This document shows positions 3,106 to 34,168 of a DNA stretch of 64,000 nt, piece by piece. Location of the stretch: assembly GCA_030446805.1 (NCBI GenBank), contig JAUJMO010000005.1:24022-88021 (forward strand), given 5' to 3'. Source of the stretch: Caulobacteraceae bacterium (GTDB lineage Bacteria > Pseudomonadota > Alphaproteobacteria > Caulobacterales > Caulobacteraceae). A program made the position numbers and the translations under genes. Within the stretch, counting starts at the first letter, position 1, and each line of letters starts with the position of its first letter. The notes under the pieces are model-generated. The model saw only the letters and a program-made list of their open reading frames with translations. It did not search any database and was not told the DNA's origin.

Positions 3106-3185
3106 ACGCGCGACTCACGCGGGTGTGATTGGCGCCTGTCGGCTTCGCGACGCATGATGCGGAAACGGGGTGGAGGTTCCCCGTG

Positions 3186-28478: not shown

Positions 28479-28730
28479 GGCGCGGGTCTAGCACGGCCCG
28501 CCACGCTCGCCAGGCCGGAGCGGAACCGTCCCGCTCCATGCTCCACCCGGGTCGCGGTTTGCGGCTACCGACCAGATGGTCGACGGCTCACCGCCGTGGC
28601 GGGGTCCACCACACCCCGGGCAGCGCCGGCTCCTGGACGCCGTATCGACCGCGGCGGCGCTGACGGGCAGCGGCCGCTTCCGCCGGTGCGGGGGAGGCGC
28701 TAAGCAATCGGACTGTTGAGGAGCGCCCGC

Positions 28731-29723
28731 ATGATCGACCCCGCCCAGCCCCGTCATGACTGGACATTGGCTGAAGTGGAGGCGCTGTTCGCCCTGCCCT
28801 TTCCCCAACTCGTGTTCCAGGCGGCGGCCGTGCACCGGCGCTGGTTCGATCCCTCCGAGGTGCAGCTGTCGCAGCTCCTGAGCGTCAAGACGGGGGGCTG
28901 CGCGGAGAACTGCGGCTACTGCTCGCAGTCGGCCTCGTTCGACACCGGGCTCCGGGCCTCCAAGCTGATGGATCCTCAGGTCGTGATCGCCCAGGCGGAG
29001 CAGGCCAAGGCCGGGGGCGCGCAACGCTTCTGCATGGGCGCGGCCTGGCGCGAGCTGAAGGACCGCGACCTGCCCAAGCTGGCGGCCATGATCTCCGGCG
29101 TGAAGGCCCTGGGCCTGGAGACCTGCGCGACGCTTGGGATGCTGACGCCGGCCCAGGCGCAGGAGCTCAAGGCCGCGGGGCTGGACTATTACAATCACAA
29201 CCTGGACACGGGGCCGGACTATTACGCGGCGGTGGTGACCACGCGCACCTACCAGGACCGACTGGATACGCTGGCGGCGGTGCGCGATTCAGGCATGAGC
29301 ACCTGCTGCGGCGGCATCGTCGGCATGGGCGAGTCGCGGCGTGACCGTGCCGGTTTGCTGCACGCCTTGGCCACCCTGCCCGCGCACCCGGACAGCCTGC
29401 CGGTCAATGCCCTGGTTCCCGTGGCCGGGACGCCGATCGGGGACAAGGTGCGGCGGGAGGGCGAGCTCGACGGGCTGGAGTTCGCTCGCACGGTGGCCGT
29501 AGCGCGGCTGGTCTGCCCCAGGGCGATGGTGCGCCTGTCGGCCGGGCGCGAGACCATGAGCCGCGAGCTCCAGGCGCTGTGCTTCCTGGCCGGCGCCAAC
29601 AGCATCTTCGTGGGCGGGCGACTGCTCACCACGGCCAACCCGGAGCGCGACACGGACGCCGCCCTATTCGCCGACCTCGGCCTGCGCCCGATGGCGGAGC
29701 CGGCCCCGCCGGCCCGCGCCTGA
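28731..29723 (+). CDS. bioB: Biotin synthase BioB
   Basis: A 330-residue radical SAM enzyme that inserts sulfur into dethiobiotin, the last step of biotin synthesis. The 4Fe-4S/SAM motif [11 protein letters not shown], the [12 protein letters not shown] segment and GGIVGMGES are characteristic of BioB. The ATG at 28731 has GAGGAG ten bases upstream. Other biotin genes are not in the window, so this is a detached bioB. The next gene starts 98 bases downstream behind its own palindromic operators. Confidence 0.95.
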
Positions 29724-29754
29724 CAAGGTGACGAAAACTTAATCCAGGCGGCGG

Positions 29755-29772
29755 GATCACAAATTTGTGATC
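29755..29772. promoter_or_regulatory. Palindromic operator-like site 1 (perfect dyad)
   Basis: GATCACAAATTTGTGATC is an exact 18-base palindrome between bioB and the VWA lipoprotein gene. A second, imperfect copy is centred 33 bases downstream. The two are followed by GGGGAG and the ATG at 29822, so they most likely overlap the promoter. The binding protein is unknown. Confidence 0.65.
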
Positions 29773-29787
29773 GGGAGTTCCCGCTGT

Positions 29788-29805
29788 GATCACGAGTTTG
29801 TGATT
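29788..29805. promoter_or_regulatory. Palindromic operator-like site 2
   Basis: GATCACGAGTTTGTGATT shares the GATCAC and TTTGTGAT arms of the upstream perfect palindrome, with two mismatched pairs in the dyad. It ends 16 bases before the start codon of the VWA lipoprotein. Bound protein here would block transcription or translation initiation, so repression is the simplest model. Confidence 0.6.
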
Positions 29806-29821
29806 ACAGGGGAGCAGATCC

Positions 29822-31450
29822 ATGAAGGGTCGAAGCGTGTGGCTGGCCGTGGCGCTGACGGCTTTGACGGCGGGCTGTGGGCGATCAGGCGGCGGGGCGG
29901 ACTACGCCGAAACAGCCAAGACGGAGGCCACGGCGGCGGAGACGGGCCCCCCCTATCCGGCCTACCCGCCCTATCCGGTGGACCCAAGCGTCCGCACGGG
30001 CGAGCCCGCCCGCTATCCCGACGCAAAGCCCAATCCGGTCAAGCGCACGGCCGAGCAGCCGGTCTCCACCTTCGCCATCGACGTGGACACGGCCTCCTAC
30101 GCGGTGGTGCGCCGCTTCCTGGCCTCCGGCGCCAAGCCGCCGGTCGACGCGGTGCGGGTGGAGGAGTTGATCAACTACTTCCCCTACGACTATCCGCGCC
30201 CGGCCCGCGAGGAGGTGTTCAAGCCCTTCGTGGCCGTCGCTCCCTCGCCCTGGGCTCCGGGCAAGCGGCTGATGCATGTGGCGCTCACCGGCTATGACAT
30301 TCCGCGCAGCGAGCGGCCGCCGCTGAACCTGGTGTTCCTGGTCGACGTCTCCGGCTCGATGGAGGGCGAGGATCGGCTGCCCTTGGCCAAGAAGGCGCTG
30401 GGCGTGCTCGTGGACCAGCTGCGTCCGCAGGACCGAGTGGCCATGGTGGTCTATGCCGGCCAGTCCGGGGAGGTGCTGGAGCCCACCTCCGGACGCAACA
30501 AGGCCAAGATCATGCGGGCGATCCGCGAACTCGGCGCGGGCGGCCCCACGGCCGGCGCGGAGGGGCTGGAGCACGCCTATCAATTAGCGCGAGAGAACTT
30601 CGACGAGGATGCGGTCAACCGCGTGATCCTGATGACGGACGGCGACTTCAACGTGGGCGTCATCTCCGAAGACCAGCTGGAGGACATGGTCGCCGACCAG
30701 CGGCAGACGGGAATCTATCTGTCCGTCTACGGCTTCGGTCAGGACAACCACCAGGATCGCCGGATGCAGGCGATCAGCCAGGCGGGCAACGGCACGGCCG
30801 GCTACATCGACACCCTGGACGAGGCCCGGAAGGTGTTTCGCGACGACTTCACCAGCTCCGTCTTCCCCATCGCCGACGACGTGAAGATCCAGGTCGAGTT
30901 CAACCCGGCCGCCGTCGCCGAATGGCGGCTGCTGGGCTATGAGACCCGGCTCTTGGCGCGCCAAGACTTCAACAACGACCGGGTGGACGCGGGGGAGGTC
31001 GGAGCCGGCGCAACGGTCACGGCCATATATGAGATCACCCCTCCGGGCGGGCCGGTCGCGGTGGACCCGCTGCGTTACGGTGGCGAGCCCCGGGCCGAGC
31101 TGGAGGCCCGCCGGGCGGGCGGGGATGAGATCGCCCTGGTGCGCTACCGCTTCAAACGGCCGGGCGGGACGCAGACGGCGCTGCGCGAACGCCCGGTCAC
31201 CGAGCAGGACGCCTACCCCACCTTGGACGCCGCGCCGGAGTCCACCCGGTGGGCGGTGGCGGTGGCCGGCTACGGCCAGCGGCTTCGCAACGACCCCAAC
31301 CTGGGTCCCCGCTTCGGGTGGGACCGCCTGGAGCGACTGGCCCAAGGCGCGCGGGGTGACGACCCTTGGGGGCTCCGCGCCGAGTTCCTGCGGCTGGTGC
31401 GCGCGGCCCGGGACGCCGAGCCGGCGGAGCGGGCCGGTGAGGCGGCCTAG
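29822..31450 (+). CDS. VWA-domain lipoprotein (YfbK-like)
   Basis: A 542-residue lipid-anchored periplasmic or surface protein. The signal peptide ends in the lipobox LTAGC. A von Willebrand N-terminal domain begins near STFAIDVDTASYAVVRRFL, then a VWA domain with the MIDAS residues in LVDVSGSM and MTDGDFN, then the C-terminal DUF3520-type domain of YfbK proteins (PGGTQTALRERPVTEQD). GGGGAG precedes the ATG. Two palindromes lie directly upstream, suggesting dedicated control. YfbK-type proteins have no firm function; metal-dependent binding of a partner is inferred. Confidence 0.85.
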   Translation: MKGRSVWLAVALTALTAGCGRSGGGADYAETAKTEATAAETGPPYPAYPPYPVDPSVRTGEPARYPDAKPNPVKRTAEQPVSTFAIDVDTASYAVVRRFLASGAKPPVDAVRVEELINYFPYDYPRPAREEVFKPFVAVAPSPWAPGKRLMHVALTGYDIPRSERPPLNLVFLVDVSGSMEGEDRLPLAKKALGVLVDQLRPQDRVAMVVYAGQSGEVLEPTSGRNKAKIMRAIRELGAGGPTAGAEGLEHAYQLARENFDEDAVNRVILMTDGDFNVGVISEDQLEDMVADQRQTGIYLSVYGFGQDNHQDRRMQAISQAGNGTAGYIDTLDEARKVFRDDFTSSVFPIADDVKIQVEFNPAAVAEWRLLGYETRLLARQDFNNDRVDAGEVGAGATVTAIYEITPPGGPVAVDPLRYGGEPRAELEARRAGGDEIALVRYRFKRPGGTQTALRERPVTEQDAYPTLDAAPESTRWAVAVAGYGQRLRNDPNLGPRFGWDRLERLAQGARGDDPWGLRAEFLRLVRAARDAEPAERAGEAA

Positions 31451-32234: not shown

Positions 32235-32687
32235 TCAAAAATCGGCGTCGCCTGGCCGACTTGCAAGGGCGTGAGCCAGGGCGAGTTCGACCTTGGCCGG
32301 AGCGGAGGCCTCCAACGGCCGCAGCACCGTGCGCTCCACAGCCACCCCGGCCAGGGTCTGTCGGGCGCGATTCGGAATGCGGTCCAGCTCGATGTCGGAA
32401 GCCACACAGTGGACCACCAGAGCCACCCGGGTCAGTTCGCGCCACCCAACCGCCAGCACATCCAGCCCGCGAACCTCGAGGAGGCGGGCGAGCGCGGGCG
32501 GCGCCTTGGCGTAGAGCCGGCCCGAGGACGCCCACAGCTGCACGCGGTCGTCGGCCACCAGCGACCACCCGCGCTCGATCAGCCGCAGCATCAGGTCGCT
32601 TTTGCCCACTCCCGACCGGCCGGTGAGCAGAACGCCGGCCCACCCCGCCGAGGTGCGCCGGGCCACGCAGCCGGCGTGTTCGATCAC
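32235..32687 (-). CDS. hprK: HPr kinase/phosphorylase, short alphaproteobacterial form
   Basis: A 150-residue protein corresponding to the C-terminal catalytic half of HprK. The Walker A motif GRSGVGKSD (Lys29) and the VADDRV segment are present; the N-terminal domain of firmicute HprK (about 130 residues) is missing, as is usual in alphaproteobacteria. It phosphorylates the serine of HPr, encoded two genes downstream. The ATG overlaps the chvG stop (ATGA), tying PTS regulation to the ChvG/ChvI system. Confidence 0.88.
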   Translation of the reverse strand: MIEHAGCVARRTSAGWAGVLLTGRSGVGKSDLMLRLIERGWSLVADDRVQLWASSGRLYAKAPPALARLLEVRGLDVLAVGWRELTRVALVVHCVASDIELDRIPNRARQTLAGVAVERTVLRPLEASAPAKVELALAHALASRPGDADF

Positions 32688-34168
32688 GGACGTGCGCCCG
32701 CTTCCGGCAGGGCCATCTGGAACCGCGCCCCGAGCAGCCGGCCCGTCTCGTCCAACCGGTTCTCGGCCCAGATACGCCCGCCGTGGGCGTCGACGATCTG
32801 ACGCGCGATGGACAGTCCCAGGCCCGAGTTGCCGCCGAAAGCCGCGCCCTTCGGCCGTGAGGTGTAGAAGCGTTCAAACACGGTTTCGAGATTGTCCACC
32901 GGCACCCCCGGCCCGTTGTCCTCCACGGCGACCACCGCCTGCCCGTCCTGCCGCAGCAGGCGCACCCGCACGGCCGACTCCGGCGGGCTGAACGAACGCG
33001 CGTTGTCGATCAGGTTGCGCACCACCTGCCCCAGCGGTCCGTCCCGACCTTGCACATAGACGGGCGGATCGGCCTGCCGCTCGTAGCGCACCTCGGTCTC
33101 GGACGGCCGGCGCGTCTCGCCGTAAAAGGCGATCAGCTCGGCCAGGAGCGCGTCCAGGTCCACCGGATGCGGAGCGTCGCGCGACAGCTCCGCGTCGAGC
33201 CGGGATGCGTTGGAGATGTCGGTGATCAGCCGATCCAGCCGGCCCACGTCCTGTTTGAGGATGCCGAGCAACCGGGCGCGCGGAGCCTCGTCGCGGACCA
33301 GCTCCAAAGTTTCCACGGCGGAGCGGATGGAGGTGAGCGGGTTCCTGATCTCGTGCGCCACGTCGGCCGCAAAGGCCTCGATGGCGTCCATGCGCTGGCT
33401 GAGCGCCCCCGTCATGGCTTGCAAGGCGCGGGTGAGGTCGCCGATCTCGTCGTCCCGGCCGGCGAGGCGCGGTAGCTGGATCGATCGGGCCCTGGACAGG
33501 CGCACCAGGTCCGCTGCGTGCGCCAACTCCACGATCGGCCGTGCGACGAAGCGGGCCAGCAGCACGGAGGACAGCAGGCTGACGGCCACGGCGACCAGAA
33601 TGAAAGGGATCAGATTGCGCCGCTGCGCGGCCAGCACCTCGTTGAAATCGCCGGCCTCGATGGTCAGCACGCCGAGGGGCGCCCGCACACGCCGGATCGG
33701 GATGGAGACGGAGACCACTCGCTCACCCAGCACCGAGCGCCGCACTTCCGAGATGATCTCGCCCGTCGTGCGAGCGCGCGCCACCTCCGCTTCGAAGTGG
33801 CTGCGCGCGCGGGCGATGTCCTCCGGCGAAGGGCGCGCTTCCGGCTTGGCCGAGACCGGCGGCAGCGGCCGGGCCTCGATGACGTTCGTGACCGTGTTGC
33901 TGTCGATCACCACCCGGCCCTGGGCGTCGGTCAGGCGCGCGCGCTGGTCCTCGAAGATGAAGCTCCGCTGCAGGATCTCCGAGGCGGTCAACTGGTCGAA
34001 ACCCTGGGCGGGGTCTTCGAAGGTGGCGTAGGCCGCGATCAGCTCGGCCAGGAACCGCCCCTGGATGGTCAGGCTTTCCTTGCGGGCGTCCACCAGCGCC
34101 TGGCGCTGCTCGTTGAGCACCAGGGCGCCGGCGACCAGGATCGCCAGGCTGAGCAGGTTGAGCGCCAC
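32684..34168 (-). CDS. chvG: Envelope/acid-stress sensor histidine kinase ChvG
   Basis: A membrane histidine kinase, 494 residues from the GTG at 34168. The first hydrophobic segment starts immediately (ALNLLSLAILVAGALVL), followed by a periplasmic domain (about 25-165), a second helix (about 185-207), HAMP, HisKA with DVAHEIRNPL and an HATPase with NLIDNARSFS, DNGPGVP and GLGLSI. The same frame continues upstream through an Arg-rich stretch typical of the ChvG cytoplasmic tail but contains no ATG, GTG or TTG, so the true start may be non-canonical and lie within the end of chvI. Confidence 0.88.
   Translation of the reverse strand: MALNLLSLAILVAGALVLNEQRQALVDARKESLTIQGRFLAELIAAYATFEDPAQGFDQLTASEILQRSFIFEDQRARLTDAQGRVVIDSNTVTNVIEARPLPPVSAKPEARPSPEDIARARSHFEAEVARARTTGEIISEVRRSVLGERVVSVSIPIRRVRAPLGVLTIEAGDFNEVLAAQRRNLIPFILVAVAVSLLSSVLLARFVARPIVELAHAADLVRLSRARSIQLPRLAGRDDEIGDLTRALQAMTGALSQRMDAIEAFAADVAHEIRNPLTSIRSAVETLELVRDEAPRARLLGILKQDVGRLDRLITDISNASRLDAELSRDAPHPVDLDALLAELIAFYGETRRPSETEVRYERQADPPVYVQGRDGPLGQVVRNLIDNARSFSPPESAVRVRLLRQDGQAVVAVEDNGPGVPVDNLETVFERFYTSRPKGAAFGGNSGLGLSIARQIVDAHGGRIWAENRLDETGRLLGARFQMALPEAGARP

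Follow-up and report, generated by a model that had tools for sequence, protein, structure and literature searches.

Operators of TetR- and MarR-type regulators are even palindromes of 16-18 bp with a variable centre of 4-6 bp; they lie over the core promoter and are sometimes doubled, with QacR as an example of nested double operators. CRP recognizes TGTGA-N6-TCACA and FNR-type regulators TTGAT-N4-ATCAA. The envelope response regulator ChvI uses the motif TTGC-N3-GCAA (PMC9731502), and in Caulobacter crescentus HigX binds envelope-gene promoters at the inverted repeat ATGTTASC-GSTACCAT, which has no spacer (PMC13384398). RtrC, also from C. crescentus, has a predicted MarR-like fold and a pseudo-palindromic site, with sites near transcription starts and an adhesion regulon of 113 ChIP peaks whose targets act in holdfast, motility and c-di-GMP (PMC9648850).

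The locus described here, a pair of palindromes ahead of a YfbK-like VWA lipoprotein gene, carries sites of a family-wide consensus, ATCACR-N4-YGTGAT (full site (G)ATCACR-N4-YGTGAT(C), half-site ATCACR). These sites resemble TetR/MarR-type operators in architecture, but without consistent linkage to a TetR or MarR gene. With CRP and FNR sites they have the GTGA/TCAC half-site letters and a similar length in common; assignment to this class was rejected because the half-sites are inverted, TCAC-N6-GTGA here against the CRP order given above. The ChvI system shares the theme of envelope homeostasis, but its motif differs from the pair and is absent from positions 29724-29821 of the window (the whole 64-kb stretch of DNA analyzed), so that membership of the ChvI regulon was discarded. 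HigX has envelope promoters and an inverted repeat in common with the present system, whereas its repeat lacks the N4 spacer; the HigX regulon was likewise rejected, as the ATGTTASCGSTACCAT inverted repeat is absent from the same interval. RtrC comes from the same order and, by its description, also binds a pseudo-palindrome, but its targets differ from the lipoprotein and exported-protein genes found here. Negative autoregulation by RtrC would place an operator at its own promoter; among the loci sampled, none was seen to have a site next to an rtrC-like gene. A literature search by the exact site sequences returned no match.

The palindrome pair and its conservation

Both palindromes, named S1 and S2, lie inside the 98-bp intergenic gap between the stop codon of a bioB-like gene and the start of the VWA gene. 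The features are as follows.
28716-29723, plus strand: bioB-like biotin synthase, upstream neighbour, with Radical_SAM and BATS domains
29755-29772, no strand assigned: S1, candidate distal operator, from the sequence, with arms and spacing kept in the sister species G001
29788-29805, no strand assigned: S2, candidate proximal operator, from the sequence, with a perfect counterpart in G001
29809-29814, plus strand: probable ribosome-binding site GGGGAG, from the sequence
29822-31450, plus strand: YfbK-like VWA lipoprotein, candidate regulated gene, with PF12450, PF00092, PF12034 and the lipobox LTAGC

The initial annotation had described an exact palindrome with an imperfect second copy before a YfbK-like surface protein, and each of these elements was borne out. 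Direct reading gave S1 (GATCACAAATTTGTGATC) as an exact 18-bp palindrome and S2 (GATCACGAGTTTGTGATT) as a near-copy with one mismatch to GATCAC-N6-GTGATC. The two have the arms GATCAC and TTTGTGAT in common, with a centre-to-centre distance of 33 bp, and S2 ends 16 bases ahead of the ATG at 29822; S1 lies 49 bp from this start codon. The 542-aa product of the VWA gene contains vWF_A, VWA and YfbK_C domains in addition to its lipobox. The next gene downstream is convergent and encodes an HPr-domain protein; on its far side, ~3 kb from the pair, a ChvG-like sensor kinase gene occupies 32684-34168 on the minus strand.

At the composition of the window, a perfect 18-bp palindrome of any sequence is expected by chance ~0.9 times per 64 kb, so a single one is not remarkable. 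The expectation for exact GATCAC-N6-GTGATC is ~0.0013, and with a near-copy alongside S1 this makes a chance origin appear very unlikely. When up to two mismatches were allowed, the window contained six sites against 2.06 expected, a number reached in 2 of 100 shuffles; S1 and S2, adjacent in the same gap, are the only two with fewer than two mismatches. A scan of the region for sigma-70 promoters and terminators found none, Rfam gave no credible match, and the region had no match among phage records. Elsewhere in the window, a site between Tad-like and phosphatase-like genes (3114-3129, CTCACGCGGGTGTGAT) departs from the motif by a single mismatch and is conserved in G001; it is probably due to chance.

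G001, a metagenome-assembled genome, represents the only other member of the genus in our genome set, and its VWA protein is 95% identical to that of the host. Its pair, GATCACATGTTTGTGATC and GATCACGAGTTCGTGATC, has unchanged spacing, and both copies are exact GATCAC-N6-GTGATC. S1 differs between host and G001 by two substitutions, both within the N6 centre, so that the arms are kept, and the two changes in S2 make the G001 copy perfect. Taken alone, this conservation is weak evidence, because the entire gap is highly similar in the two species. Conservation before orthologous VWA genes, set beforehand as a test, failed outside the genus: the pair was absent before all 17 other well-matched orthologues in the order (48-65% identical). 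Because the motif recurs before other lipoprotein and exported-protein genes in the host and the family, absence at VWA orthologues proved to be the wrong test for refuting an operator. Judged from the sequences, the operator itself appears family-wide and the membership of the VWA gene genus-specific, the latter resting on two species.

Recurrence and placement of the motif

The host genome and Caulobacterales were searched for the site, as the initial annotation had suggested, and the motif was found again before other lipoprotein and exported-protein genes. A scan of the host genome allowing one mismatch uncovered a second pair (G000:C5:255449-255487, minus strand; GATCACGTGCATCTGATC-ACA-CATCACGAGTTCGTGATC), also kept in G001, which ends 15 bp before the gene of a 104-aa, alanine-rich lipoprotein downstream of polA. 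Weaker candidate sites, each with one mismatch, lie at C1:1297812, with a Gly/Thr-rich lipoprotein gene starting ~60 bp downstream, and at C4:328991, which is kept in G001 and precedes by ~93 bp a gene named, from a look at its sequence only, as an efflux-type outer-membrane lipoprotein. In genus g4, the orthologue of the small lipoprotein has no proximal site. A degenerate pair (CTCACGAATTCGTGTG and CTCACGGCGTTTTGAT, 37 bp apart) was seen further upstream of it, its copies ~440 and ~400 bases away from the start of the gene (L433, also L434), and is kept in two g4 species.

We scanned the family, taken to be Caulobacteraceae from the initial annotation and the gene content, with ATCACGAGTTCGTGAT, allowing one mismatch, and the order with ATCACGNNNNCGTGATC. 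Family sites are mostly intergenic, about 15-110 bp from the start codon, and lie ahead of genes for exported proteins: DUF4349 lipoproteins, one fasciclin paralogue group, YceI, MsrA, PAP2, DUF2459 and others, with short lipoproteins downstream of motA as a further class. As a control we used the dinucleotide-matched palindrome ACATCGNNNNCGATGTC; gene calls and signal-peptide tests followed simple home-made rules that were the same for both sets. Among 45 sampled family sites of ATCACG-N4-CGTGAT, 40 are intergenic versus 3 of 34 for the control (Fisher p ~2e-13), and 34 of the 45 have the start of an exported, lipoprotein or membrane gene within 120 nt downstream versus 0 of 34 (p ~7e-13). 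With orthologous sites collapsed, the corresponding values are 6e-11 and 4e-10. Across the order, the motif occurs in 78 genomes and the control in 148; raw enrichment was rejected as evidence, since the matched control is the commoner of the two, and a reversed-sequence control was discarded as biased because it contains the rare CTAG. The placement of the sites is informative and unusual, their raw number uninformative.

Independently of the motif, we took the upstream regions of Pfam DUF4349 genes in the family. Of these 26 regions, 18 contained a site with no more than one mismatch, 12 of them a perfect one; shuffled sequences had none. Among the regions lacking a site, some belong to the second gene of a tandem pair or to a gene whose start is wrongly placed, and the DUF4349 genes behind L329 and L324 do carry sites (L042, L281). 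The same procedure applied to fasciclin genes recovered a site before only 2 of 30, the host gene examined being among those without one; fasciclin was therefore rejected as a general target, a minority of its paralogues carrying the site. From these two results, DUF4349 appears to be the core target, the sole general one of the two families examined in this way, and the other targets would vary by genus.

Several further occurrences were recorded. In many species of genus g3 (L082-L090 and relatives), the region separating divergent nrdA-like and PAP2 genes contains a ATCACGCGTTCGTGAT-type site, a well-conserved single candidate operator. The motif also stands beside motA-like genes in several genera (L050, L051, L097, L233, L243, L246, L252, L258) and, in L243, L246 and L252, ahead of a short alanine-rich lipoprotein gene. 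Paired TCACC-NNNN-GGTGA-like palindromes at locus position ~1500 in other genomes of the family (L043, L049, L053), adjoining a TetR-like gene in L049 and L053, were rejected as instances of the motif and belong to a different operator type. Scattered sites before secreted proteins occur in other orders of the class as well, a hint that the regulator could predate the family.

Probable mode of action and alternative readings

We consider it likely that S1 and S2 are operators of one dimeric helix-turn-helix regulator, probably a repressor, of a lineage-variable regulon of envelope lipoproteins. Such a protein would sit on S1/S2-type sites through the half-site ATCACR and govern a small set of lipoproteins and other exported or membrane proteins that differs between lineages. 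In the host genus this set would include the YfbK-like VWA lipoprotein together with the small alanine-rich one; in other parts of the family, its members would include lead DUF4349 genes, one fasciclin paralogue, YceI, MsrA, PAP2 and short lipoproteins. As the sites would often overlap the expected -10/+1/leader region, we infer that repression is the most probable mode. The regulator would obstruct RNA polymerase, keep the synthesis of a few surface lipoproteins low, and leave its site upon an envelope signal. The initial annotation had also proposed cooperative binding. The host pairs are spaced 21 and 33 bp, near whole helical turns, and an extra half-site 11 bp outside the palindrome was observed 9 times against 0.87 expected (p ~4e-7); an apparent GTGATCACR overlap at offset 15 was set aside, since a C that commonly follows the site explains most of it. 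Two dimers could bind together at double sites spaced 21-33 bp, or where an additional half-site lies one turn out, and this geometry is compatible with side-by-side dimers, from which we infer cooperativity.

That the palindromes are chance sequences, kept merely by the close kinship of two sister genomes, would agree with the overall similarity of the gap in G001 and with the missing pair at other VWA orthologues; it is contradicted by the second, independent pair in the same genomes, by the strong placement bias and by the motif-blind DUF4349 result, and we regard it as scarcely credible. Another alternative is an RNA element, in which the palindromes, as hairpins in the leader, would mask the ribosome-binding site or stabilize the mRNA. 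The VWA leader folds strongly (z -5.0), and the S2 stem can extend via CTGT/ACAG until GUUCCC pairs with the GGGGAGC ribosome-binding region; most of this extension survives in G001 with a G-U pair. Palindromes fold by construction, however, for many sites the distance to the start codon is 50-110 nt, and the second host pair shows, by eye, no evident stem over the ribosome-binding site. Half-site counts, which give ATCACR, are also at odds with a stem in the 27 sites whose letters the search pattern had not dictated: positions 2-4 never vary, compensatory pair changes are absent at positions 1-5, and pair 6 is broken by A.C mismatches in four of the 27, besides a few G.T and A-T pairs. Complementarity of the bases flanking the 16-mer is no higher than column composition predicts (98 distinct intergenic contexts). 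Because the arms are without RNA-type covariation and the flanks without stem extension, the sites are best read as putative DNA half-sites recognized by a dimer, and an RNA role seems highly improbable. The generic features of a dimeric operator are present in that the sites are two-fold symmetric, intergenic, conserved and not RNA-like; together with placement and the DUF4349 result, they favour the original proposal that a dimeric regulator recognizes a DNA operator here.

The sign of regulation is a separate matter. The sites could instead serve an activator or form part of an activated promoter; with RtrC of Caulobacter, the position of the site decides between activation and repression (PMC9648850). 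S1, given its distance from the start codon, could sit upstream of a core promoter, and some sites are >80 bp away from the start. Proximal sites at 15-28 bp, on the other hand, leave little room for a core promoter and leader, a position that fits repression. Overall we judge activation unlikely; for sites farther from the start codon it is a serious competitor of the repressor reading.

Candidate regulators and implications

A regulator gene sharing the site had been sought as a further check, and here the search came back empty: among the proteins flanking ~100 site contexts, no regulator, TetR and MarR types included, is consistently linked. Regulator genes turned up as neighbours in single cases: at L074, where a MarR gene precedes a DUF4349 gene, and at L205, with an IclR-like gene. 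The 51-bp fragment carrying the pair, or a DUF4349 promoter from a tractable relative, provides a ready bait for finding the regulator.

Our search of papers found no work on the regulation of DUF4349 lipoproteins. The motif provides a concrete sequence signature, covering these lipoproteins and the YfbK-like VWA lipoprotein, for an envelope regulon without a description in the papers searched. More tentatively, it may point to an undescribed regulator, family-wide and possibly class-wide, that is dedicated to lipoprotein and exported-protein genes, with a fixed operator and targets rewired between genera, and that perhaps senses lipoprotein or envelope load.
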